A DNA stretch of 52,354 nucleotides, taken from an uncultured Clostridia bacterium (lineage in GTDB: Bacteria > Bacillota > Clostridia > Oscillospirales > CAG-272). The notes below the pieces were generated by a model. The model ran no database searches, was not told where the DNA came from, and saw only the letters and a program-made list of their open reading frames with translations. Positions 13,257 through 39,028 of the stretch are shown one piece after another (positions within the stretch are counted from its first letter, which is position 1; each line of letters opens with the position of its first letter). The position numbers were made by a program, and so were the translations under genes. The DNA lies in contig CALWTR010000014.1 in NCBI GenBank assembly GCA_944384525.1, forward strand, positions 1 to 52,354, read 5' to 3'.

Positions 13257-13904
13257 TCATTTCATTTTTTCCTGCTTGACCTTTTTGTCGATAACATGCC
13301 TGGAGGCAAGCTCACGCCTTATATCGGACGGAGTTATGCCGCACTCGACCATAAGAACAAGTGCATGATACATGAGATCGGCAAGCTCATAAACGGTCTC
13401 TTCCTTTGAATTTTTCGCGCCTATAATGACTTCTGTGCTCTCCTCACCGATCTTTTTGAGTATCTTGTCGAGTCCCTTCTGGAAGAGATATGTGGTGTAT
13501 GAGCCCTCCGGCATTTTCTCTTTTCGGTCTTTCAGCAGTGAGAACAGATTGTCGACCGAAAATTCCTCCTCCCCTTCCTTTCGATATATCTCATTTGTAA
13601 AACATGAGTCAGAACCGGTATGGCAGGCGGGACCGTCTTTTATGACCTCTATCACGAGTGCGTCCGCATCGCAGTCCGCAGTGACGGAAACTATATGCTG
13701 ATAATTGCCGGATGTCTCCCCTTTAAGCCACAGCTCCTGCCTTGAACGGCTGTAAAAACAGGTCAGCCCCTTTTCAAGGCTTATCCTGAGACTTTCCCTG
13801 TTCATATAAGCGACCGTCAGCACCTTTTTACTGTAAAAATCCTGAACTACCGCCGGAATAAGTCCATTGTCGTCGAATTTCAGATTATTTATATCAAAAT
13901 CCAT
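13257..13904 (-). CDS. hisIE: Bifunctional phosphoribosyl-AMP cyclohydrolase / phosphoribosyl-ATP diphosphatase
   Basis: Catalyses steps 2 and 3 of histidine synthesis. 215 residues from the ATG at 13904 (gggag upstream). The HisI half (about 1-105) shows [24 protein letters not shown] and the Zn/Mg motif [18 protein letters not shown] with CF. The HisE half shows [31 protein letters not shown] and YELADL.YH. It is the last gene of the operon. An in-frame extension upstream is not used because it would run into hisF. Confidence 0.97.
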
Positions 13905-13942
13905 TGTTATTCTCCCAAATTGAAAATAATTGTTGACATTTG

Positions 13943-14701
13943 TCAGATCCTGACGTTTATCCCGCCGTCTCTGAGCATTTTTTTGAGCTCCGGTATTTTT
14001 ATCTCGCCAAAATGGAATACAGATGCCGCAAGCCCGGCATCGACCCTCGGGACCTGCTTGAAGAGCCGGAGGAAATCCTCCGCGCACCCGGCGCCGCCGC
14101 TCGCAATGACAGGTATCGAAACGCTGTCGGATACCGCCTGCAGCATCTCAATATCAAAGCCTCGCTTCACTCCGTCTGTATCTATACTGTTCAGAACGAT
14201 CTCGCCGGCGCCTTCCGCCTCGCCGCGGCGCGCCCACTGTACCGCATCTATCCCGGTATCGTCTCTGCCTCCCCTTGCGAACACGGAAAAGCCTCGTGCA
14301 GTACGCTTTACGTCCATTGACAGAACAACGCACTGATCTCCGTATTTTTTAGCGGCGGCGCCTATCAGAGACGGATCCTTTATTGCCCCGGAATTGACGC
14401 TCACCTTATCCGCTCCGCACTTAAGTACCCTGTCGAAATCATCGACGGTGTTGATACCGCCTCCGACCGTCAGCGGTATAAATATCTCGGAGGCTACCCG
14501 CTGCAATACGTCGGTAAACAACTTGCGGCCGTCGTATGTTGCGGTTATATCGTAAAAAACCAGTTCATCCGCACCGCTGTCATTGTAATATTTTGCAAGC
14601 GCGACCGGATCAGATACATCTTTGAGTGTCGAAAAATTAACACCCTTTACAACTCTTCCGTCCCTTACGTCAAGGCAAGGTATTATCCGTTTTGCAAGCA
14701 A
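13943..14701 (-). CDS. hisF: Imidazole glycerol phosphate synthase, cyclase subunit
   Basis: TIM barrel that closes the imidazole ring with ammonia from HisH, giving IGP and AICAR. 252 residues. Opening [22 protein letters not shown] with catalytic D11, [15 protein letters not shown], a second Asp in NSIDTDG, and VIASGGAG. hisA ends 4 bp upstream. HisH is in the same operon, so the glutaminase tunnel complex is complete. Confidence 0.97.
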
Positions 14702-14705
14702 ACCA

Positions 14706-15425
14706 TCAGCCCCCTCTCGCTGTCTCTATGGCGGTTTTGAGATCGAGCGCCCCGGTATATAAAGCCTTTCCGAGTATCGCTCCATAATTTCCCATATTCC
14801 TGAGCTCTGCTATCTCTGAATAATATGTGATCCCTCCGGAGGCGATTATATCGAGCCCGTCTATTCCGACCAGACGTCTGTATGCGCCGATATTCGTTCC
14901 GCTCATTGCCCCGTCTCGGGATATGTCGGTATATATGACCGTTCCGACTCCCAGATCACGCATAGCCGTACAGAAATCAAAAGCGTCCGTACCGCTGAGC
15001 TTTTCCCATCCGCGCACCGCGATCTTTCCATCTCTGGCATCTGCACCGACCGCGATCTTTCCGCGGTATTTTTTTATCGCCGCCCTGAGAAAGTCCGGAT
15101 CCTCGACTGCGGCAGTTCCGAGTATCATGCGCCCGACTCCGCACTCGGCATAACGGTCGGCACGCTCCATATCCCTTATACCTCCGCCGACCTGAACGAA
15201 CATGCCGCTCTCTGCGACTATTCGCTTTATAACGCCGAAATTAACCGTCTCTCCCTCTCTTGCCCCGTCAAGATCGACCACATGAAGATGATCGGCTCCC
15301 GAGTCGCGGAAGCTGAGCGCGGTGAGCACGGGGTCATCTCCGTAGACCGTCATATCGTCATAATCGCCTTTGGTAAGACGGACTACCTTTCCCCCGCGTA
15401 TATCTATTGCCGGAAAAATAATCAT
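14706..15425 (-). CDS. hisA: 1-(5-phosphoribosyl)-5-[(5-phosphoribosylamino)methylideneamino]imidazole-4-carboxamide isomerase
   Basis: ProFAR isomerase, a TIM barrel paralogous to HisF. 239 residues. FPAIDIRGGKVVRL carries the catalytic D8; HVVDLDGA, VQVGGGIR, VGADARDG and the second Asp in YTDISRDGA are all present. It lies between hisH (25-bp gap) and hisF. Confidence 0.97.
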   Translation of the reverse strand: MIIFPAIDIRGGKVVRLTKGDYDDMTVYGDDPVLTALSFRDSGADHLHVVDLDGAREGETVNFGVIKRIVAESGMFVQVGGGIRDMERADRYAECGVGRMILGTAAVEDPDFLRAAIKKYRGKIAVGADARDGKIAVRGWEKLSGTDAFDFCTAMRDLGVGTVIYTDISRDGAMSGTNIGAYRRLVGIDGLDIIASGGITYYSEIAELRNMGNYGAILGKALYTGALDLKTAIETARGG

Positions 15426-15450: not shown

Positions 15451-16059
15451 TTATATTTCAGAGAAAGCCCTCAGTATGTCAAGACCTGTCTCCCCGCTCT
15501 TCTCCGGATGAAACTGCGTCCCGAAAATATTTTCCCTCTCCACAGCTCCGGTTATATCTATACCGTATTCCGATACCGCGGATATATATTTCGGATCACA
15601 CTTAGCGTAAAAGGAGTGTACATAATAGACGCTGTCACCATCACTTATGTATTTGAAGATCCCGGATTTTTTAAGTATTTTAAGATTGTTCCATCCCATA
15701 TGAGGAACCTTGAGACCGCCTGGCAGCTCATCCGCCATAGGTACCACCCTGCCGTCAATGAGTCCGAGCCCCTTGTGCACACCGTACTCTAAGCTCTCGG
15801 AAAAAAGGAGCTGCATCCCAAGGCATATCCCCAGCATCGGTTTTCCCCGCGACGCCTCCTCTTTTATAACTTGGACCAGGCCGGTTTTCTCAAGCTTGCA
15901 GTATGAGTCGCCGAATGCGCCGACTCCGGGAAGGATTATCCTGTCTGCGCTCCTGATCTCATCGGGGTCCGCAGTGACCGTGCTCTCGGCTCCTATATGT
16001 CTGAGCGACGCTCTGAGCGAAAACAGGTTTCCTACTCCGTAATCTATCACCGCGATCAT
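15451..16059 (-). CDS. hisH: Imidazole glycerol phosphate synthase, glutamine amidotransferase subunit
   Basis: Class I glutaminase supplying ammonia to HisF. 202 residues: opening IAVIDYGVGNLFSL, oxyanion strand PGVGAFGD, nucleophile Cys in MLGICLGMQLLF, and the His/Glu pair in GTQFHPEKS. Its ATG shares one base with the hisB stop (TGATG), indicating translational coupling. Confidence 0.97.
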   Translation of the reverse strand: MIAVIDYGVGNLFSLRASLRHIGAESTVTADPDEIRSADRIILPGVGAFGDSYCKLEKTGLVQVIKEEASRGKPMLGICLGMQLLFSESLEYGVHKGLGLIDGRVVPMADELPGGLKVPHMGWNNLKILKKSGIFKYISDGDSVYYVHSFYAKCDPKYISAVSEYGIDITGAVERENIFGTQFHPEKSGETGLDILRAFSEI

Positions 16060-16664
16060 CAGAACACTCCTTTTGTTGTCGGAAGCTCAGAGGCTCTTTC
16101 TGCATCGACGGACAGCGCCTCCGACATAGCCCTTGAAAGAGCCTTGAAACATCCCTCTATGATATGATGCGTGTTTTTTCCGGAAAGTTTGCGAAGATGT
16201 ATGTTCATCATCGCTCTTGAGGACAGTGCATACATGAACTCCTCGACCAACTCCGTGTCAAAATCCCCGACCTTTTCCGCTCCGGGGTCGACGTCGAACC
16301 CCAGATAGTTTCTGCCGCCGAAGTCCACAGCACAGAGTATCAGAGCGTCGTCCATGGGGAGGATAATGTCACCGTACCTCTTTATACCGCGGCAGTCACC
16401 GGCCGCCGTCCTGAACGCAGCTCCGAGGCAGATGGCGACGTCCTCAACGGTGTGGTGGAAATCCACGTCCGTGTCGCCCTTACACTTGACTTTGAGGTCA
16501 AATCCGCCGTGCTTCGAAAAAAGCTCCAGCATGTGATCAAGAAACCCGACCCCGGTATCTATTTCATATTTGCCGCTGCCATCAAGGCAGATATAAAGCT
16601 GTATATCCGTCTCTCCGGTGCGCCTGTTGATCTCAGCCTCTCTTTTGACTGTTTTTGCGCTCAT
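16059..16664 (-). CDS. hisB: Imidazoleglycerol-phosphate dehydratase
   Basis: Mn-dependent dehydratase for IGP to imidazole acetol phosphate. 201 residues. The ATG at 16664 (MSAKTVKR) is preferred over the GTG at 16685 because ggaaaggaa lies just upstream. The paired His motifs D.HHTVED and HHIIEG, and GFLDHML, are conserved. It is the monofunctional form without a HisN-type phosphatase domain; no histidinol-phosphatase gene is in this operon. Confidence 0.97.
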   Translation of the reverse strand: MSAKTVKREAEINRRTGETDIQLYICLDGSGKYEIDTGVGFLDHMLELFSKHGGFDLKVKCKGDTDVDFHHTVEDVAICLGAAFRTAAGDCRGIKRYGDIILPMDDALILCAVDFGGRNYLGFDVDPGAEKVGDFDTELVEEFMYALSSRAMMNIHLRKLSGKNTHHIIEGCFKALSRAMSEALSVDAERASELPTTKGVF

Positions 16665-16691
16665 AGAATTTCCTTTCCGCCGCACAGGCGT

Positions 16692-17768
16692 TTAATTATA
16701 TTTTCCCTGAAAAACATCGGCAAGTATTTCGTCGATCCTCCGCAGCAGCTCCTCAACCTCGTCCGAACTCCCCACGGTTATCCTGACGAAGTCCTTTATC
16801 CTCTCGTCCGGTAAATGCCGAACCAGTATGCCGCGCGTCTTCAGTTCTGAATAGAGCCTCTCGCCTGATATCCCATCGTGTCTCGCCAGATGAAAATTCG
16901 CAAGAGAATCAGTCACGAAAAAGCCCCTCTTCAAAAGCTCGCGTCTAAGATATTCCCTGCTGCCGATCACCCTGCTCCTGCATGACTCAAAATAGTCTGT
17001 GTCTCTGATTGCGGCCTCTCCGGCGAGCAGAGACAGTCTGTTTATGTTATAGGGATTGAATGAGAATTTGAGCGTGTTAAGGTCGCGTATGATCTCCGCG
17101 TCCCCCAGCGCGTAGCCGATCCTTGCCCCCGCAAGATTCCTGGATTTTGAAAATGTCCTGACCACAAGGAGGTTTTTATAGCGCGATATCAGCGGCAGTA
17201 CGCTCTCTCCGCCGAAATCTATATATGCCTCGTCTACAATAACTACCCTGTCCGGATCAGATGCTACTATCTTTTCTATCTCGGATACCGGCATAAATAT
17301 CCCGGTCTGCGCGTTCGGATTGGCGATAACGACGTTCTCGCGCCTGCCGCAGTAATCCTCGGCCCGGACGCAGAGATATTCATCGAGAGGTATTTTTGAA
17401 TAAGGTATGCCGAAAAACTCCGAAAATACCGGATAAAAACCATATGTGACGTCCGGGAATACAAAGCCTCTGTCGCGATACGCGTGAAATGCGAAAGCCA
17501 GGACCTCATCGCTCCCGTTGCCTACGAATACGTTTTCGTATCCGACGCGGTAATATTCGCTTATAGCACCGACGAGTGCCTTAGCCTCAGGGTCGGAATA
17601 CAGATTGAGCTTTCTGCGTTCAGCCCCGCGCGTCGCAGTTATGACCTTTTCAGACGGCGGATACGGGGATTCGTTAGTATTAAGCTTTATATATTTCCGA
17701 TCCCTTGGCTGTTCACCCGGGGTGTACGGCTCAAGCGTCGAAAACAGATCAGACAAAAACCTGCTCAT
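16692..17768 (-). CDS. hisC: Histidinol-phosphate aminotransferase
   Basis: PLP aminotransferase converting imidazole acetol phosphate to histidinol phosphate. 358 residues from the ATG at 17768 (RBS caggag), which overlaps the hisD stop by 4 bp. Visible: KLNTNESPYPPS, GNGSDEVLAF, NPNAQTG, DEAYIDF, and TFSKSRNLAGARIGYA with the PLP lysine; FVRITVG at the C terminus. Confidence 0.96.
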   Translation of the reverse strand: MSRFLSDLFSTLEPYTPGEQPRDRKYIKLNTNESPYPPSEKVITATRGAERRKLNLYSDPEAKALVGAISEYYRVGYENVFVGNGSDEVLAFAFHAYRDRGFVFPDVTYGFYPVFSEFFGIPYSKIPLDEYLCVRAEDYCGRRENVVIANPNAQTGIFMPVSEIEKIVASDPDRVVIVDEAYIDFGGESVLPLISRYKNLLVVRTFSKSRNLAGARIGYALGDAEIIRDLNTLKFSFNPYNINRLSLLAGEAAIRDTDYFESCRSRVIGSREYLRRELLKRGFFVTDSLANFHLARHDGISGERLYSELKTRGILVRHLPDERIKDFVRITVGSSDEVEELLRRIDEILADVFQGKYN

Positions 17769-19078
17769 AACAATTTCTCCTGCCCTTTTACATCCTTTGA
17801 GCACTCATCTGTGAAGCGGCAGAGTATGCTCTCCGCGTGCGCCCCGAGCCCTTCAGAGCGCGCGAACATCGCGACCTTGTCTTTCACGCGCCGAAGCGCG
17901 TCCTCGCTGTAATACAGATAAGATGATTTTTTGACGAAATCATCCACGGACAGCGGCGAGGAGAATTTTGCGCTCCCCCCTGTCGGCAGGGTGTGGTTCG
18001 GACCTGCAAAATAATCTCCGAGCGGCTCCGGCGAATTTTTTCCGAGGAATATGGAGCCCGCATTTTTGACTCTGTCGAGATAATCGAACGGCTCCTCAAG
18101 GAAAAGCTCAAGATGCTCCGGGGCTATCTTGTTAGCTATGCCGATAGCGCTGTCTATGTCCGGAACTATGATTATTTTTCCGTTGTTGTCGATCGAGCTC
18201 CGAGCGATATCTCTCCTGCCCAGTTCCGGAATAAGGCGCTCGAGCTCCGCACTGACGGAATCAGCCAGCCCGCGTGAATCTGTGACCAGCACCGCAGTGG
18301 CAAGCCGGTCGTGCTCCGCCTGAGAGAGCATGTCCGCGGCGACCCGGCGCGGAGATGCGGAACCATCCGCAACTATAAGTATCTCGCTTGGCCCGGCTAT
18401 CATATCTATGCCGACCTTGCCGAATACCTCTTTTTTAGCTATCGCTACAAAAATATTTCCGGGTCCTACTATCTTGTATACCGCCGGCACGCTCTCTGTT
18501 CCGTATGCCAGCGCGGCTATCGCCTGAGCTCCGCCGCACTTGAATATCCTGTCTACCCCGCAGATATCAGCGGCGCAGAGTATCTCGTCCCGTATCCTGC
18601 CGTCATGGCCGCATGGAGTAGTCATAACGATCTCGGACACCCCTGCTATTTTTGCCGGTACCGCATTCATGAGCACCGTCGATGGGTAGCTTGCCGTACC
18701 TCCGGGAACGTATATCCCGACCTTTTCGATCGGAGTATATTTCTGACCGAGAACGATCCCGCCCTCCCGCTCGAGCCGGAAACCCTCGCGGAGCTGATTG
18801 CGGTGGAAGTATTCTATATTGTCCTTCGCCTCTTTAATTACCTGCAAAAGTTCGGGATCTACCCGCTTTTTAGCCGCCTCTATCTCATCCCTCGTTACCT
18901 CGAGCGAGTCGAGATCCGGATAGTCGAACCTCCGTCCGTATTCCAGCAGAGCCGCATCTCCGCGCTCGCGGACATCCGCGATTATCCCGCGGACCGTACC
19001 CTCATATTCGGTATAAGTCTGTATCTCTCTGTTGAGTATGCTGTCTGTATCTATATTTCCGTCGTAGATCCGTATCAT
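17765..19078 (-). CDS. hisD: Histidinol dehydrogenase
   Basis: Zn- and NAD-dependent four-electron oxidation of histidinol to histidine, the last step. 437 residues. Markers: VGIYVPGGTASYPSTVLMNAVPAKIAGV, GGAQAIAALAYGTE, VGPGNIFVA.AK, DMIAGPSEI, SQAEHD, the catalytic APEHLEL, and GSIFLG..SPEPLGDYFAGPNHTLPT. It starts just after hisG (4-bp overlap) and overlaps hisC by 4 bp. Confidence 0.97.
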   Translation of the reverse strand: MIRIYDGNIDTDSILNREIQTYTEYEGTVRGIIADVRERGDAALLEYGRRFDYPDLDSLEVTRDEIEAAKKRVDPELLQVIKEAKDNIEYFHRNQLREGFRLEREGGIVLGQKYTPIEKVGIYVPGGTASYPSTVLMNAVPAKIAGVSEIVMTTPCGHDGRIRDEILCAADICGVDRIFKCGGAQAIAALAYGTESVPAVYKIVGPGNIFVAIAKKEVFGKVGIDMIAGPSEILIVADGSASPRRVAADMLSQAEHDRLATAVLVTDSRGLADSVSAELERLIPELGRRDIARSSIDNNGKIIIVPDIDSAIGIANKIAPEHLELFLEEPFDYLDRVKNAGSIFLGKNSPEPLGDYFAGPNHTLPTGGSAKFSSPLSVDDFVKKSSYLYYSEDALRRVKDKVAMFARSEGLGAHAESILCRFTDECSKDVKGQEKLL

Positions 19079-19710: not shown

Positions 19711-21111
19711 TTATCTCGCATCATCTGTGCCGGTCGCATCCACATTTTCGAGTCTTCTGTAAGTCAGCCCCTCCGGAATGCCCCTCTCGACGCGTACGCT
19801 CTCTCCGCCTTTTCGTATCTCGTCTGCACGGCGGAGCACCTCGGCCGGATCAGAGTCTTCCCTGTAAAGGAGCAGAACGTCGACGTCATATTCGCTCGGC
19901 CGCCTGAAATACGCAAGATCGTCAAGATAGACCGCAAATCCTATCGCTCCGATGCCGGGCGCGAATTTGCTGACCAGTCCGTCATATCTGCCGCCCGAGA
20001 GCACAGAGCGCGGGACGCCGCTTATAAAACCGCGGAAAACAACGCCGTTATAGTAATCTATATCGTTTGCAACGGAAAAATCAAGTCGTATTTTGTCGCG
20101 GAATCCCGCTGCATCGGCAGCCTTGCCTATCGTGAGCATCTCCTCGTACGCCTTTTTCGTACCCTCATCCACGACCAGCCTTTCCGCGCCGGAAATGCAT
20201 TCGTCAAAACTGCCCCGCATATCGAAGATCGAGAGCAGGAGCCTGCGCTTTTCCCCGGAAATACCGTATTTCTCCGCGCTGAGCTCAAAGTCGTGCTCAT
20301 TTTTCCTCTTTATCGAGGAGAATAGCTCGCGCTTTTTGTCGAAGGTATCCGCGCCCGCATACTCGAGCAGACCGCCGACCAACGCCATATGAGAAAGGCA
20401 AAGCGTATATTCCGGGCTAACCGTCCTGAGCGATTCGAGCGCGAGTCGTATGACCTCGGCAGTTGAATATACGTCAGAGGCCCCGATCGATTCCAGCCCC
20501 ATCTGATTTATCTCCCGGTATTCCCCGCTCCTGCGCTCATATCTGTATACGCTCTCGTGGTAGTAATATTTTTCGCTTCTCTCCGCCGTCGCCTTGGTGT
20601 TTTTTATTATGGAGAGAGTGACGTCCGGCTTGAGCGCAAGAAGTCTGCCGCGGTTGTCGCGGAAGGTCAGTATGTTGTCGCTCGAGAGAAAATTCCTGTT
20701 TTCCATGTAGAGCGAATATTCCTCGAACTTCCGCATTTTAAAAGCGCTGTATCCGCAGGATTCATAGAGCGAGCGGAGCGAGTATATGATGTCCTCTTCC
20801 GTCTCTCCGACGACCGCGGCGCCGTTTTTCTTCAGATATTCCGAGAATATTTTGCGATATCCGCCGCTCCCATGCTTGATCGCCTTGCTGACACGGCTGA
20901 GCGTCGCGGTAGATACGTTGACCTCTGAGATGACCTTCTGATAGGTCGCTCCCTGCATAAGCAGCCGCGCGCTCTCGACTCTCTGTGCCATATATTCGAT
21001 TTCATTATAAGTACAAAGATCTGTGAGAAACGCCTTTACGTCCTCCGGACTTGCGAGTGATGCGAGGACAGAATAAAGCTCCTCCTCGGATCTGATCTTA
21101 TCAAAGCTCAT
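19711..21111 (-). CDS. hisZ: YerC/TrpR-like DNA-binding domain fused to HisZ
   Basis: 466-residue fusion heading the his operon. Residues 1-95 match the YerC/YecD TrpR-related family (DLCTYNEIEYMAQRVESARLL, then a helix-turn-helix QGATYQKVISEVNVSTATLSRV). From about 106 the protein is HisZ, the histidyl-tRNA-synthetase paralogue that activates and feedback-regulates short HisG: class II motifs RFEEY-like, YYHESVYRYERRSGEYREINQMGLE, YYNGVVF and SGGRYDGL. The anticodon-binding domain is absent, as in HisZ. The start is set at ATG 21111, not 21120, because agaaagg lies at usable distance. Known: YerC-type proteins have been proposed as histidine-biosynthesis repressors. Inferred: this protein both regulates HisG and controls its operon. 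Confidence 0.9.
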   Translation of the reverse strand: MSFDKIRSEEELYSVLASLASPEDVKAFLTDLCTYNEIEYMAQRVESARLLMQGATYQKVISEVNVSTATLSRVSKAIKHGSGGYRKIFSEYLKKNGAAVVGETEEDIIYSLRSLYESCGYSAFKMRKFEEYSLYMENRNFLSSDNILTFRDNRGRLLALKPDVTLSIIKNTKATAERSEKYYYHESVYRYERRSGEYREINQMGLESIGASDVYSTAEVIRLALESLRTVSPEYTLCLSHMALVGGLLEYAGADTFDKKRELFSSIKRKNEHDFELSAEKYGISGEKRRLLLSIFDMRGSFDECISGAERLVVDEGTKKAYEEMLTIGKAADAAGFRDKIRLDFSVANDIDYYNGVVFRGFISGVPRSVLSGGRYDGLVSKFAPGIGAIGFAVYLDDLAYFRRPSEYDVDVLLLYREDSDPAEVLRRADEIRKGGESVRVERGIPEGLTYRRLENVDATGTDDAR

Positions 21112-21120
21112 ACCGGGCAT

Positions 21121-22323
21121 CCTTTCTTGTATGTGACAGTTTGAGATATTTTTATCTTTTCGGCAATTTGATGTTCCGCGTCAATTCAACTTCCCCGTTG
21201 GGTTTCTATGTTCAACGCTATTTCCGTTTTAACAGCGCCTTGATTTCCGGCGGAAATTCAGTTTTTTAAAACAATTGGATCTTTTCTTCGGCTCAACGCA
21301 TCCGGATGACCTGTTTCCTCCGCAAATCAAAGACCTTTAAAAAGCAGGAATCCTTTTAAAACCAAATTGATCCGAAAGTTGAATTCCGCTGGAATTTTAT
21401 TTTTCCGGTAACTTGCATCCGGAAACTTGCCTTTCAAAAATTTGTTTTCCTGAGACCCCGGCCTATCCGAAATTTAAGCACTCTTAAACCTTAGGTACTT
21501 TAAAAATTATTTTTGTAAAGACAGAGTCGACTCGGAAACCAAACTTTTACGGTAACAGAATTGTCCGAAGAATCACTATCGTCGGGTATCTTACCCCTCC
21601 CGAAGCGACTTTTTATTTAATAACCCGATACGGGAGCATATTTTCCGCTGCACTTTTGTCTAAAAAAGTAAAACTATGAAACATCGAGCCTCAAAGCTCC
21701 GATATATATTACAATTATAGCATTATGCTTTATCGTTGTAAAGTGTTAAAGCGTAGAATAATCACATTTTACAGATGTTTTTTTAGGCAACATATACAAA
21801 TTCAAAATTATTCCGTACTTATCCGTACTTTTCTTCTGCTATTTATGTATTTTACAAGAATTTTCCGATATTTTTTCAAGCTTCGAAATCAACTTTATTT
21901 CGCATGGGGCATTGTATACATCGAAATTGATTTATCTTGTTAAAGTTAAAGCATGATCATCTCAAAATCTGCGATGATCAAAATTTTATATCTTTATAAT
22001 AATTTTAGTTAAACATTTTATTTGGTTTTTATCAAAACCTTTTTGCTTAGAGCAGCCGTCTGCAAACCAGAAAACAAATTTTATAAGAACATACCCGGCT
22101 TTTCAGTCCTTATTTGCCTCTCAAAAATAAGCCCTTACAAAAAGCATACTTTTCAAAAAACAGCCATTTTTTAAAACTAATTTCAAAAAAACAGTCATTT
22201 CAAAAAATATATGCTTAAAAAGCATCGATTTTAAAAGCAGTCGTTTCAAAAGGATTTTACTCCAAATTTTTTAAAAAAAATTATTCAAAAATTCATTTCA
22301 AACAGTTCCCGTGATTTTCCGAA
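21121..22323. other. 1.2-kb gene-free AT-rich spacer with degenerate repeats
   Basis: No plausible protein gene on either strand; the 72-codon frame at 21725-21943 has no RBS and is low-complexity. It contains short degenerate direct repeats: a 14-bp pair (21405-21418 and 21419-21432, CCGGWAACTTGC), a TTTTAAAACMAAWTTGGATC-like pair near 21262 and 21354, and TTTCAAAAAACAGYCATTT at 22151 and 22181. An 8-bp-arm inverted repeat TGATCATC/GATGATCA is at 21954-21980. No T-box or aptamer consensus was recognised. Confidence 0.6.
21144..21157. promoter_or_regulatory. Candidate operator dyad upstream of the his operon
   Basis: AGATA-N4-TATCT, a 5-bp-arm inverted repeat, 33-46 nt before the hisZ start. 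It is the clearest dyad near the start codon, but AT-rich and short. I could not identify a convincing -35/-10 pair nearby. Confidence 0.35.
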
Positions 22324-22370
22324 AAAAATACCCCTGCGGAAAACTAACGCCGTCCGCGGGGGTATTTTGG
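22324..22370 (-). terminator. Rho-independent terminator of pnp
   Basis: On the - strand, AATACCCC.CGCGG pairs with CCGC.GGGGTATT and is followed by a T-run; about 115 nt past the pnp stop. It closes the rpsO-pnp unit. Confidence 0.88.
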
Positions 22371-22485
22371 GTTATTAAATTTAAAATTGCTTTTATATTT
22401 CACAGATCCCGCAAAAAACCGAAGAAATGAAGCGGGATACAGTCTCAGTTACGCACACCTCAGCAGAAATGAGCTCCGTGGGGAA

Positions 22486-24594
22486 TCATTTGTCTGCGTC
22501 CTTGATGCTGAAGTCCATTCTTCCCTTCTTATCAAGTCCGATATATTTTACTCTGACCGCATCTCCGACGTGAACGACGTCCTCGACCTTCTCGGTCCTC
22601 TTATCCTGGAGCTTGGAGATGTGCACCATTGCCTCCTTGCCGGGCGCGTACTCGACGAACGCACCGAACTCGGCGATCTTAGTGACCACTCCGTCATATG
22701 TCTCGCCCACTACCGGCTCGAAAACGATCGCGTCGATTATCGCCTTTGCCTTATCGGCGCTGTCCCTGTCGACCGCAGCAATGCATACGGAGCCGTCGTC
22801 CTCGATATCTATTTTTGCGCCGGTGTCGGCAACTATCTTCTGGATCACCTTTCCGCCGGTTCCGATGACCTCGCGGATCTTATCGGGATTTATCTTGAAG
22901 TTTATCATCTTAGGCGCGTACTTGGAGACCTCGGCTCTCGGAGCGGATATAGCAGGCAGGAGCACCTTGTCTATTATCTCATCGCGTCCTTGGTGAGTCA
23001 TTTCGAGCGCCGCCTTTATGATCTCGGGGGTGAGGCCGTCGATCTTGAGGTCCATCTGTATCGAAGTGATGCCCTTATGAGTTCCGGCGACCTTGAAGTC
23101 CATATCGCCGTAGAAATCCTCAAGGCCCTGGATATCTATCATAGTCATCCAGTCGCCGTTATCCTCGGTTATAAGTCCGCAGGATATTCCGGCAACGGGC
23201 GCTTTGATCGGAACTCCAGCATCCATGAGCGCGAGCGTAGATCCGCATACCGAGCCCTGAGAGGTCGATCCGTTCGAGCTGACGACCTCGCTCACGAGTC
23301 TTATCGCATACGGGAATTCCTCCTCGCTCGGAAGGACCGGAACAAGAGAACGTTCTGCGAGCGCGCCGTGACCTATCTCACGCCTTCCGGGGCTTCTCAG
23401 TGCTTTCGCCTCTCCGGTAGAATAGCCGGGCATGTTATAGTGGTGCATGTATCTCTTAGAATCCTCATCGTCAAGCCCCTCAAGCCTTTGAGCATCGCTG
23501 AGGGTGCCGAGAGTTGCGACCGTGAGGACCTGAGTCTGTCCGCGGGTGAAGAGACCTGAACCGTGAGCACGGGGCAGGAGTCCGACCTCTGCGGCAAGAG
23601 GCCTTATCTCATCGAGGCGGCGTCCGTCAACTCTCTTATGGTCGACGAGGAGCCAGCGGCGGACTATCTTCTTCTGTATCTTATATATCAGCTCCGGGAG
23701 AACTATCCTGATATCGGGATACTTGTCCTCAAAATTTGCGACGATATCTTCCATGACGGGCTGCATTCTCTCGTCTCTGACATTCTTGTCGTCAGTGTCG
23801 AGGGCGTACATGACAGCCTCCTCACAGTACTCGAATATCTCATCGAACATATTGTGATCGAGCTCTCCGGAAGGATAGCTGAATTTAGGCTTGCCTATCG
23901 CAGCTACTATACCGTTTATAAATTTGACGAGCTCTTTTATCTCGGAGTGCGCAAGCATTATCGCGTTGAACATATCGTCATCGGAGACTTCCTTTGCGCC
24001 GGCCTCTATCATGACGACCTTCTTTTCACTTGCGGCAACGGTGAGTTCAAGCGTGGATACATTTCTCTGCTCTGCGGTCGGGTTTATGACCGGTTTTCCG
24101 TCGACCATACCGACAAAAACTCCGCCTATCGGGCCGTTCCACGGGATATCGGAGATAGAGAGCGCGATCGACGCGCCTATCATTGCAGTTATCTCAGGTG
24201 AGCAGTCCGGATCCACCGACATGACCGTCAGCGTGATCGCGACATCATTGCGCAGGTCTTTCGGGAAGAGCGGTCTGATCGGGCGGTCAATAACCCTGGA
24301 GGTCAATATAGCCTTCTCGCTCGGCTTTCCCTCTCTCTTGAGGTATCCGCCGGGGATCTTTCCGACGGCATACATCTTCTCGTCATAATCGACTGAGAGC
24401 GGGAGAAAATCTATCCCCTCTCTCGGAGCCTCAGACGCAGTTGCGCACGCAAGCACGACCGTATCCCCATAGCGAACGAGGCACGAGCCGTTTGCAAGTC
24501 CGGCTATTTTACCGGTCTCTACCGAGAGCTTTCTTCCGGCGAGAACATAGTCGAACACGCGGTAATTTTCAAACTTCTTGAATTTTTCAACCAT
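22486..24594 (-). CDS. pnp: Polyribonucleotide nucleotidyltransferase (PNPase)
   Basis: Phosphorolytic 3'-5' exoribonuclease of RNA decay. 702 residues from the ATG at 24594 (RBS ggaggag); the upstream in-frame start at 24618 would begin before that RBS. Two RNase PH-like domains are seen (GDTVVLACA, RVIDRPIRPLFP; then GRRLDEIRPLAAEVGLLPRAHGS.LFTRG and SSNGSTSQ.SVCGSTLALMDAGVP), then a KH domain with IREVIGTGGKVIQKI and an S1 domain with GVVTKIAEFGAFVEYAPGKEAMVHIS. It follows rpsO, the conserved bacterial order. Confidence 0.98.
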   Translation of the reverse strand: MVEKFKKFENYRVFDYVLAGRKLSVETGKIAGLANGSCLVRYGDTVVLACATASEAPREGIDFLPLSVDYDEKMYAVGKIPGGYLKREGKPSEKAILTSRVIDRPIRPLFPKDLRNDVAITLTVMSVDPDCSPEITAMIGASIALSISDIPWNGPIGGVFVGMVDGKPVINPTAEQRNVSTLELTVAASEKKVVMIEAGAKEVSDDDMFNAIMLAHSEIKELVKFINGIVAAIGKPKFSYPSGELDHNMFDEIFEYCEEAVMYALDTDDKNVRDERMQPVMEDIVANFEDKYPDIRIVLPELIYKIQKKIVRRWLLVDHKRVDGRRLDEIRPLAAEVGLLPRAHGSGLFTRGQTQVLTVATLGTLSDAQRLEGLDDEDSKRYMHHYNMPGYSTGEAKALRSPGRREIGHGALAERSLVPVLPSEEEFPYAIRLVSEVVSSNGSTSQGSVCGSTLALMDAGVPIKAPVAGISCGLITEDNGDWMTMIDIQGLEDFYGDMDFKVAGTHKGITSIQMDLKIDGLTPEIIKAALEMTHQGRDEIIDKVLLPAISAPRAEVSKYAPKMINFKINPDKIREVIGTGGKVIQKIVADTGAKIDIEDDGSVCIAAVDRDSADKAKAIIDAIVFEPVVGETYDGVVTKIAEFGAFVEYAPGKEAMVHISKLQDKRTEKVEDVVHVGDAVRVKYIGLDKKGRMDFSIKDADK

Positions 24595-36631: not shown

Positions 36632-38899
36632 TTAATCCAGTTTTACTCTTGCTATGCCTATATTGCCCTTGCCAAGCATCTGTATTATTGCAACCAGTAT
36701 CTTTTCCTCTGCGTCCGGAAAATCATGGAACGTAAGTGTGAGCACGGTCTGCTCGGTCTTTTCCGCGCGCACGCGCAGTTTGTCGGAGGATTTTCCGAAA
36801 TATCTGAGAGTGCTCTCGATAGTCTGATGTATATAAGGCAGTATATTCATATCTACCGGATATCTGAACATCAACACTATGTTCCTGTCCCTGGTTATAG
36901 GCCGTTCATCTATTACCGTCTCCGCTTCAGGATCAGCCTCAGCTTCAGGCTCAGTCTCGACTTCCGGCTCTGCTTCAACTTCAGGCTCAGTCTCGACTTC
37001 CAGCTCAGTCTCAACTTCTGGCTCAGCCTCAACTTCTGGCTCTGCTTCAACTTCGGGCTCGGCCTCTGCTTCCGGCTCTGCTTCAACTTCCGGTTCTGCT
37101 TCAACTTCCGGTTCAGCCTCAACTTCGGGTTCAACTTCAACTTCGAGCTCAGCCTCAACTTCGGGCTCAGCTTCAACTTCGAGCTCTGCCTCAACTTCTG
37201 GCTCTGCTTCAACTTCCGGTTCTGCTTCAACTTCCGGTTCAGTCTCGACTTCCGGCTCAGTCTCAACTTCCGGTTCAGCCTCAACTTCGGGCTCAGTCTC
37301 GACTTCTGGCTCAGTCTCGATTTCGGGCTCTGCTTCAACTTCGGGCTCAGCCTCTGCTTCCGGCTCTGCCTCGACTTCGGGCTCAGTCTCGACTTCTGGC
37401 TCAGTCTCAACTTCCGGCTCTTCCTCTACATCCTGTTTGTATATATTCGTATTCTGAGCTACGAACAATCCTGCCTGCTCAAAAGAGTCTCCCTCAACGA
37501 TATAATCCTCTACGCCGAAAGACGCCGGAGCCGATACTGTAACAGTCTCCTCCTCAGTACGGAAAGCATAGGTATCGTTTTCACCTCCGGTGATCTCCTC
37601 CTCTACGCAGCTGTCTTGGCTCTTCTCTTCGATCGCCGCGGCATCTCCCGTATCCGCATCGCCGGTCTCTGCAAATACCTCAGGCTGCTCAGTCTCCTCA
37701 GTCTGTTCAGTCTCCTCAGGCTGCTCAGTCTCCTCAATCTCTTCCGCTTCCTCGGGGCTTTCCGTTTTCTCGAGTACATCGGGGCACTCATCCTCTTCAG
37801 CCTGAGCGTCATCTACGCTTTCAGCCGCTCCGTCCGCAGAAGTATCCTCTTCTGCTACCGCGGCAGTGAACAGCTCTTCCGCCGCGCATCCGGGAGCCGC
37901 TCCGGAGGAGGAAACCGCCTCGGAAAGCACCGATGCCAGATCGCTCACCTGCTCCTCAAGCAACTCGGATGGCTTGTCCTCAGAGGCAGTAGCAGAGGTC
38001 CCGTTCTGAGCGTCGGCCGTCTCCGGCTCGGCGAGCTCGAGATTTCCGCGCTTTAGTTCTCGTTTTATAAGCTCTCTCCAATCAGTCACATTCCTGCGGC
38101 CCATGGAGGAGCGGTATTTTTCTATATTGTTTCTGATGAGATATCTGTATTCTACCTCACGAACTTTCTGCGGAACATCCTCAGCCAGCTCAAACCTTAT
38201 AGTTTCGGAATTCACTGTATCGGATGAGGTGTAAGCATCATGAGAATACAGTTTTATCCACTTCACCCACAGGTCTCTCGAATTCGAGACGGCGTCCGAA
38301 AGGAGCAGTCTCCTGTAGGTTATATTTCCGGCAGTATGCTCACGGAAAGTATCCGGAGAAAAGATCATTTCAAGATAAAATTTGGAATTGCCTATATTTT
38401 TTATTCCGAACGTCTTTTCTATTTCCGCGCTTATCTGCTCCGCCATCTCATCCACAAAAGTCTGTGAATAATGTACCGCTCCGACAGGTACGGAAGACGG
38501 GAATCCTACCCTTACCTCAAGACCGGTATGCGAATAATATGTACGACGTCCGTCAAGAGCACTGACAAATTCCTGAGGGACCTCATCAACCAGATGGAAC
38601 TGAAGTATACCGTCGCCTATGTAGTCGTACGGATTGACAGATGCCCCGGACGGAAAAGGATATTTCCACTTTGCCCACTGCGTAAGATACGTAGATCTGA
38701 GCAGTATAGTGAAAGGATAATACCAATATCCGCGGAAAGAAAACTCGTCCGCGATATAATCCTCATACATCTGGACGCCCTCAAAGCCGTCCCCGTATTT
38801 CTCCGCAAGCGCTGGGCAGAGGCTCTGCTTCATACTCTGGATGAACCCCTCTGTCAAAGATGACTTGAGCACCTTATTGTGCGTTACGTCTATAACCAT
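36632..38899 (-). CDS. Large acidic hexapeptide-repeat protein
   Basis: 755 residues from the ATG at 38899 (RBS ggagg). Four parts: a folded-looking N-terminal domain (~1-270; YWYYPFTILLRSTYLTQW, VGFPSSVPVGAVHYSQTF); an Ala/Glu/Thr-rich acidic linker; 28 consecutive hexapeptides of consensus EPEVEA/T; and a compact ~90-residue C-terminal domain (MLFRYPVDMNILPYIHQTIEST to RVKLD). No signal peptide, LPXTG motif or transmembrane helix, so probably cytoplasmic. The repeat stretch has almost no positive charge. I do not recognise either end domain. Confidence 0.75.
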   Translation of the reverse strand: MVIDVTHNKVLKSSLTEGFIQSMKQSLCPALAEKYGDGFEGVQMYEDYIADEFSFRGYWYYPFTILLRSTYLTQWAKWKYPFPSGASVNPYDYIGDGILQFHLVDEVPQEFVSALDGRRTYYSHTGLEVRVGFPSSVPVGAVHYSQTFVDEMAEQISAEIEKTFGIKNIGNSKFYLEMIFSPDTFREHTAGNITYRRLLLSDAVSNSRDLWVKWIKLYSHDAYTSSDTVNSETIRFELAEDVPQKVREVEYRYLIRNNIEKYRSSMGRRNVTDWRELIKRELKRGNLELAEPETADAQNGTSATASEDKPSELLEEQVSDLASVLSEAVSSSGAAPGCAAEELFTAAVAEEDTSADGAAESVDDAQAEEDECPDVLEKTESPEEAEEIEETEQPEETEQTEETEQPEVFAETGDADTGDAAAIEEKSQDSCVEEEITGGENDTYAFRTEEETVTVSAPASFGVEDYIVEGDSFEQAGLFVAQNTNIYKQDVEEEPEVETEPEVETEPEVEAEPEAEAEPEVEAEPEIETEPEVETEPEVEAEPEVETEPEVETEPEVEAEPEVEAEPEVEAELEVEAEPEVEAELEVEVEPEVEAEPEVEAEPEVEAEPEAEAEPEVEAEPEVEAEPEVETELEVETEPEVEAEPEVETEPEAEADPEAETVIDERPITRDRNIVLMFRYPVDMNILPYIHQTIESTLRYFGKSSDKLRVRAEKTEQTVLTLTFHDFPDAEEKILVAIIQMLGKGNIGIARVKLD
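36917..37420 (-). repeat. 18-bp coding repeat, 28 units
   Basis: 504 bp encoding 28 EPEVEA/T hexapeptides in unbroken register. Variants include EPEAEA, ELEVEA, EPEIET and a final DPEAET. The antisense strand reads as an open Ser/Thr/Gly repeat, which is a by-product. Confidence 0.95.
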
Positions 38900-39028
38900 A
38901 ATAACCTCCAGAAAATACCGGCGTACCCGCCCGACGGCTCGACCGCCGCAATGCGCAGAAACCGGGCACATCAACGTCAAGATATCATTGTACACTGCGC
39001 CTAAAGAGCGCCGTGCTACTTTAGCAAT

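Follow-up and report, generated by a model that had tools for sequence, protein, structure and literature searches.

The gene at the head of the his operon

Contig CALWTR010000014.1 of an uncultured Clostridia bacterium (assembly GCA_944384525.1) was analysed over a stretch of 52,354 nucleotides (nt), referred to below as the window. It carries a set of histidine biosynthesis genes headed by a single reading frame in which a HisR (YerC) repressor domain is followed by HisZ, the regulatory subunit of ATP phosphoribosyltransferase. This hisR-hisZ frame runs uninterrupted from the ATG at 21111 to a stop codon ending at 19711 and comprises 466 codons; with the alternative ATG at 21120 the protein would have 469 residues. 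The ribosome-binding-like sequence AGAAAGG (21121-21127) lies at ribosome-binding distance from ATG 21111 and directly abuts ATG 21120. On the same strand the order hisG-D-C-B-H-A-F-IE follows, which places the fused gene at the operon head. The adjoining hisG is of the short form and matches PF01634 only, at an E-value threshold of 0.001.

At this threshold the fused protein has two Pfam matches, Trp_repressor and tRNA-synt_His. The first (PF01371) covers residues 11-91 with 72.1 bits at a cut-off of 27, and the NCBIfam model for YerC/YecD, TIGR02531, gives 71.8 bits at a cut-off of 42.2. The nearest solved chains by sequence for this N-terminal part are the TrpR-like proteins 3frw, 3kor, and 3g1c. 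In an alignment of 20 HisR sequences, the window among them, all 12 invariant columns are kept in the fusion, including those of the recognition helix.

According to PMC9413887, HisR is the product of yerC, a member of the TrpR family and a histidine-dependent repressor. The same source describes HisR proteins as short (below 100 residues), and places hisR first in, or upstream of, the his operons of several groups. In vitro, the HisR of Ruminococcus gnavus bound to its site when histidine was present and no longer did so when it was absent, and three of the six DNA-contact residues of TrpR are retained in most HisR proteins (PMC9413887). By our own fitting, the Ala, Thr, and Arg of the segment STATLSR would correspond to the DNA-contact residues Ala80, Thr81, and Arg84 named there. 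By analogy with stand-alone HisR, the HisR half of the fusion probably senses histidine itself.

The second Pfam match (PF13393, residues 105-399) reaches 163.2 bits at a cut-off of 25, and in a sequence search the two best solved chains for the C-terminal part were the HisZ structures 3od1 and 1z7m. This half is closer to HisZ than to HisRS, scoring 199.4 bits with the HisZ model TIGR00443 and 128.9 bits with the hisS model TIGR00442. The stretches LKPDVTLSI, EINQMGLESIG, DYYNG, and SGGRYD are present, which we take to lie around the synthetase histidine motifs. Codons 394-466 gave no Pfam match near its cut-off, a single row reaching 16.7 bits at a cut-off of 27, in agreement with the lack of an anticodon domain. 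In the hetero-octamer that it forms with short HisG, HisZ makes up the tetrameric core; it binds histidine and serves as the regulatory subunit (PMC10795190). The HisZ half of the fusion would by analogy bind HisG and histidine.

The score of 199.4 bits lies below the TIGR00443 cut-off of 271.65. The unfused HisZ proteins of six relatives (loci L003, L009, L034, L044, L046, and L047) were all below the cut-off as well, with 161.8-213.6 bits. It thus appears that the cut-off does not capture HisZ of this lineage. As a side observation, automatic naming by TIGR00443 may miss the HisZ proteins of this group, all seven tested including that of the window being below the cut-off.

A sequence-only reading of the window had proposed one 466-residue frame, a YerC/YecD-like N-terminal part, a remainder resembling HisZ without an anticodon domain, and a position at the head of the his operon, and had named loss of the helix-turn-helix recognition residues as a possible objection. 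The searches bear out this description, and the recognition residues are retained.

The junction and the question of an assembly error

Only 13 residues (92-104) separate the two Pfam matches. No in-frame stop codon lies between the HisR and the HisZ domain, and no in-frame ATG, GTG, or TTG occurs between residues 52 and 126. A separate full-length HisZ would thus lack a usual start codon. The open frame, the matches to both families, the missing HisZ start, and the 12 of 12 invariant columns together support a genuine fusion, and the fused frame in the assembly is confirmed.

Wrong bases or an insertion or deletion at the junction could have made two genes look like one. We consider such an assembly or sequencing error quite unlikely. 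It would fit with a fusion seen in one draft genome and with the arrangement in many relatives, in which the two genes overlap and a small insertion or deletion shifts the frame. A single error should, however, leave the hisR stop codon and the hisZ start codon nearby in some frame. What is found near residue 93 is an out-of-frame TGA without a matching start codon, in addition to the lack of an in-frame hisZ start. After the junction, the residues just before the GY (about 105-119) look by eye like the HisZ N-terminus of the relatives, though MAFFT placed the ends of these relatives elsewhere. The third-position GC content of the 15 junction codons (0.67) is close to the values on the two sides, 0.60 and 0.64, which is weak evidence. 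A single insertion or deletion does not account for the fused frame, though a compound error might.

Arrangement of hisR and hisZ in relatives

The hisZ loci of related genomes were compared with that of the window. In a first set of 69 loci hisR was located upstream of hisZ in 51, as two genes in 50 and fused in one, that of the window. The commonest spacing in the 50 unfused loci was a 4-nt overlap of stop and start codon (ATGA or GTGA; 23 loci). In nine of them hisR and hisZ are in frame and parted by a stop codon, and several relatives have both genes in one frame with one or two stop codons in between. With further loci added and duplicates removed, 101 distinct hisZ loci were available: 75 have hisR just upstream, 74 as a separate gene and one, the window, as a fusion, and 26 have no hisR in the stretch examined. 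A scan of named genomes gave eight loci, six with hisR upstream and in all six separate from hisZ; these eight records belong to uncultured members of Clostridia, Oscillospiraceae, or Eubacteriales, and for two the source is roe deer cecum.

Hidden Markov models (HMMs) of both domains, built with the window's rows included, were run on every frame of at least 60 codons in 169 loci (4,358 frames). Both genes are present in 123 of these loci, and the only frame with both domains is the one in the window. In four additional loci, of which three carry both genes, no fused frame was present either, so that the window has the sole fusion in 173 loci. These loci are mostly best matches and not a random draw, include duplicates, and were in part picked for long frames or for an unbroken match into the HisR range. 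Searches with the fused protein in 1,552 genomes (G000-G1551), sampled at the level of family, order, class, and phylum and with the best rows counted where tables were large, likewise gave, among the matches listed, no other unbroken match across the two domains and no second fused genome. Some unbroken matches begin inside the HisR range (residues 68-79), and the seven such genomes that we followed up (G803, G386, G455, G1547, G1275, G629, and G1097) are unfused. The search for further two-domain proteins suggested by the sequence-only reading thus gave none besides the window among the loci scanned and the matches listed.

In a relative, locus L058 (G247), HisZ and HisG share one frame at 832-2370 on the reverse strand (PF13393 at 4-290 and PF01634 at 355-504), and the 555-codon HisZ frame of L170 may be a similar case.

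A tree was calculated from 74 hisR-hisZ pairs, the remaining one of the 75 being too short. The nearest rows to the window are L046, L077, and L003, in all of which hisR and hisZ are adjacent and separate genes. The end branch of the window measures 0.7 changes per column, with a median of 0.44, and was not flagged as long. The 74 of 75 unfused loci and the separate genes in the nearest rows support a merger of neighbouring hisR and hisZ genes, and the event is best placed on one terminal branch.

Putative operator and promoter, and the leader

The HisR operator consensus is given as CACTTTAnnnnnnTAAAGTG in PMC9413887. A scan with this consensus found the sequence CACTTTACAACGATAAAGCA at 21726-21745, which agrees at 12 of 14 positions. 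In a weight matrix made from 40 sites of relatives, the window left out, this sequence had the top score in the 52 kb (20.89, the next being 14.85), a value that 300 shuffled versions of the intergenic stretch never reached. An overlapping second unit is offset by 8 nt, and several relatives have units upstream of hisR at an equal offset. In 40 of 48 relatives (50 minus two without enough upstream sequence) the 250 nt that precede the HisR match contain a site with at least 11 of 14 matches, compared with 2.3% of shuffles. The operator-like site overlaps the -35 box and spacer of a promoter-like sequence, TTTACA and TATAAT separated by 17 nt with TG ahead of the second hexamer, which is the best of eight such sites in 21050-22600. 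The top-scoring operator-like site over the best promoter-like site, together with the published binding by the R. gnavus protein, supports a role of the fusion as repressor. The sequence-only reading had named 21112-21400 for a test of DNA binding; the likely operator is instead some 600 nt away, on the upstream side of the gene.

A first guess at the operator pattern was dropped as uninformative (24 matches compared with 21.3 expected). We also considered a wider HisR regulon in the bacterium's own genome and claim none beyond the his operon: with up to two mismatches the pattern occurs at three places, whereas the reversed control occurs at eight. Near the two other places no histidine gene was seen by eye among the open frames, no family search having been made.

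The best site of the relatives lies at most about 170 nt from the HisR match, whereas here the distance to the start codon is 615-634 nt, and the leader is unusually long. If transcription begins just past the promoter-like site, the leader would measure about 590-600 nt. As a T-box, riboswitch, or attenuator it was rejected, with no Rfam family at its gathering score; the search gave four rows only, far below the gathering score and with E-values up to 5. Its predicted fold is slightly better than those of shuffled sequences (z -1.52), five of 100 shuffles being equally good. No histidine-rich small open reading frame (ORF) was found among the eight ORFs listed for the leader, the longest of which encodes 42 aa. 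The leader is not a repeated element, as it has one copy in the assembly.

The unusual distance of the operator-like site from the gene could also mean that the HisR half has become a passive N-terminal extension whose regulatory role is lost, or that processing splits the fusion product in two. The fusion could, moreover, impede DNA binding. We regard this as improbable: all invariant HisR columns are kept, the operator-like site over the promoter-like site is retained, and the fused gene is the sole PF01371 match in its own 72%-complete assembly.

Coordinates of all features are collected in Table 1.

Table 1. Features of the fused gene, its upstream region, and the his operon in the window
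Feature	Position	Strand	Basis and remarks
hisR-hisZ fusion gene	19711..21111	(-)	466 aa; open frame, Pfam and NCBIfam
HisR/YerC (TrpR-like) domain, residues 11-91	20839..21081	(-)	PF01371 72.1 bits, TIGR02531 71.8 bits
STATLSR, residues 67-73, helix-turn-helix recognition segment	20893..20913	(-)	20-row HisR alignment
Junction, residues 92-104	20800..20838	(-)	between the two Pfam matches; no in-frame stop or start codon
HisZ domain, residues 105-399	19915..20799	(-)	PF13393 163.2 bits; best solved chains are HisZ
HisZ C-terminal tail, residues 400-466	19714..19914	(-)	no anticodon-domain match
Ribosome-binding-like AGAAAGG	21121..21127	(-)	at ribosome-binding distance from ATG 21111; read from sequence
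Long leader	21112..21713	(-)	start inferred from the promoter-like site
Promoter-like TTTACA - 17 nt - TATAAT	21714..21742	(-)	11 of 12 consensus matches
HisR-type operator-like site CACTTTACAACGATAAAGCA	21726..21745	(-)	overlaps -35 box and spacer of the promoter-like site
Second HisR-like unit	21734..21753	(-)	matrix score 14.06
Possible weaker upstream HisR-like site	21928..21947	(-)	matrix score 14.85 as sole support
hisG, short form, 207 aa	19075..19698	(-)	PF01634 189.1 bits, TIGR00070 210.1 bits
hisD	17765..19078	(-)	PF00815 578.1 bits
hisC (aminotransferase)	16692..17804	(-)	PF00155 156.6 bits; assignment by position
hisB	16059..16685	(-)	PF00475 212.3 bits
hisH	15451..16059	(-)	PF00117 84.8 bits; assignment by position
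hisA	14706..15425	(-)	PF00977 244.6 bits; separated from hisF by order
hisF	13943..14701	(-)	PF00977 262.1 bits; separated from hisA by order
hisIE (PRA-CH and PRA-PH, single gene)	13257..14087	(-)	PF01502 and PF01503

Within the operon hisI and hisE are joined in one gene, a known kind of his fusion. Upstream of the fused gene and on the same strand lies pnp; behind it a stem-loop and then several T in a row can be read from the sequence. Elsewhere in the window a frame of 787 codons (36632-38995, reverse strand) has as its sole Pfam row a match below threshold to the acidic repeat protein family Trypan_PARP (41.6 bits at a cut-off of 100) and is perhaps of low complexity.

A probable fusion of two histidine-responsive regulators

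We consider it probable that a genuine gene fusion, limited to this lineage, has joined two known regulators that respond to histidine, and that the product retains both functions and represses the operon it heads. Directly observed are the fused frame, the conserved positions of both domains, the short hisG and his operon downstream, the operator-like site over the promoter-like site, and the unfused state in the relatives. The ancestor would have had the arrangement of the relatives, with hisR just upstream of hisZ and most often with the 4-nt overlap, and the stop codon of hisR and the start codon of hisZ would have been lost in this lineage. If the ancestor resembled the nearest relatives this route would involve a net change of frame, and if the genes were in frame, as in nine of the 50 unfused loci, loss of the stop codon alone would suffice. 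With ample histidine the HisR half would bind at 21726-21745, probably in dimeric form, and block the overlapped his promoter. Since this promoter would also drive the fused gene, the fusion would repress its own synthesis. The HisZ half with the short HisG would convey the histidine feedback on ATP phosphoribosyltransferase, and the amounts of repressor and HisZ would be set at 1:1. All this presumes a fusion that is made uncleaved, folds, dimerises, and binds both DNA and HisG, and whose halves have oligomeric habits that are compatible within one chain. That each half senses histidine independently is the simplest assumption.

Several points weigh against this explanation. The assembly is a single draft of 1.39 Mb in 56 contigs, 72% complete and probably metagenome-derived, and no second fused genome was found among the matches listed for 1,552 genomes or in the 173 loci. 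The TIGR00443 score of the HisZ half is below the cut-off. The sites in the weight matrix had been picked via the published consensus, when the intergenic stretch was shuffled 1000 times, 12 of the results equalled the plain 12 of 14 match, and in the genome as a whole the operator pattern with up to two mismatches occurs less often than the reversed control. The eight promoter-like sites compare with 4.5 (standard deviation 2.5) in shuffles, such matches being common in this A+T-rich stretch, and the operator-like site is far from the start codon.

The two halves might also work as one integrated sensor, the hetero-oligomeric ATP phosphoribosyltransferase then being the histidine repressor as well. 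Histidine bound by the HisZ half, or assembly with HisG, would determine the geometry with which the HisR half binds DNA, and a single allosteric event would inhibit the enzyme and shut the operon in the manner of a BirA-like trigger. Both domains are intact and the junction is short; moreover, the alignment with the TrpR-like structure 3frw covers residues 5-105, and the C-terminal end of HisR thus seems to run straight into HisZ. Yet stand-alone HisR already requires histidine for DNA binding; repression therefore does not need HisZ as its sensor, and the coupling is not required. Nor was a family of such fusions, which would show selection for coupling, found in the 101 distinct loci or the 173 loci scanned. 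We thus think the integrated sensor unlikely. Control of DNA binding by the HisZ ligand or by HisG would be a step beyond what is known, possible and so far unsupported.

A HisZ histidine site that would drive DNA binding, as envisaged in the sequence-only reading, is not the simplest account of the fusion. Taken as a whole that reading is partly supported. In one respect its ground has become firmer, as it had cited YerC as a proposed histidine repressor and histidine-dependent binding in vitro is documented for the R. gnavus protein in PMC9413887.

Comparison with known systems

In its domain, recognition residues, operator consensus, and his-operon target the fusion resembles HisR/YerC (B. 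subtilis yerC, R. gnavus HisR; structures 3frw, 3kor, and 3g1c). These are stand-alone proteins of fewer than 100 residues, whereas here HisR forms the N-terminus of HisZ in a chain of 466. With HisZ (structures 3od1, 1z7m, 1usy, and 5m8h) it shares the class II synthetase-like domain, the lack of an anticodon-domain match, and the place beside a short hisG; its score below the TIGR00443 cut-off is shared by the six unfused relatives tested.

The catalytic fold of BirA is of the class II synthetase type. BirA and other group II biotin protein ligases likewise carry an N-terminal DNA-binding domain and regulate the genes of their own pathway. Their DNA-binding and ligand-binding domains are of other families, however, and BirA is a ligase, whereas HisZ is a regulatory subunit; in Pfam the fusion has no biotin ligase domain. 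PutA and other trigger enzymes combine a metabolic and a transcriptional role in one chain. The proteins are unrelated to ours, in which both halves are already histidine-responsive regulators. The likeness to PutA and BirA drawn in the sequence-only reading therefore stands as one of architecture and fails as one of kinship.

HisZ-HisG and other his fusions also join neighbouring his genes, HisZ-HisG being found in the relative L058 and mentioned in print (PMC9413887). Fusions of this type join pathway proteins to one another, whereas in the window the partner of the pathway protein is a DNA-binding repressor. The main text of PMC9413887, in all its mentions of fusions or of HisZ, names hisZ-hisG and other his gene fusions and does not name a HisR-HisZ fusion. 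The sequence-only reading knew of no description of this fusion, and our searches of an open-access library, which lacks most subscription papers, gave none. What is new is the joined chain; both halves were already known.

Taken alone, the fusion is a single-lineage event that leaves the picture of the histidine pathway unchanged. It draws attention to the frequent neighbourhood of hisR and hisZ in the relatives, and it links two regulators of one pathway that answer to histidine at two levels, transcription and enzyme activity. If it is made as one chain, it would be a natural construct with which to ask if one sensor can serve feedback inhibition as well as repression.
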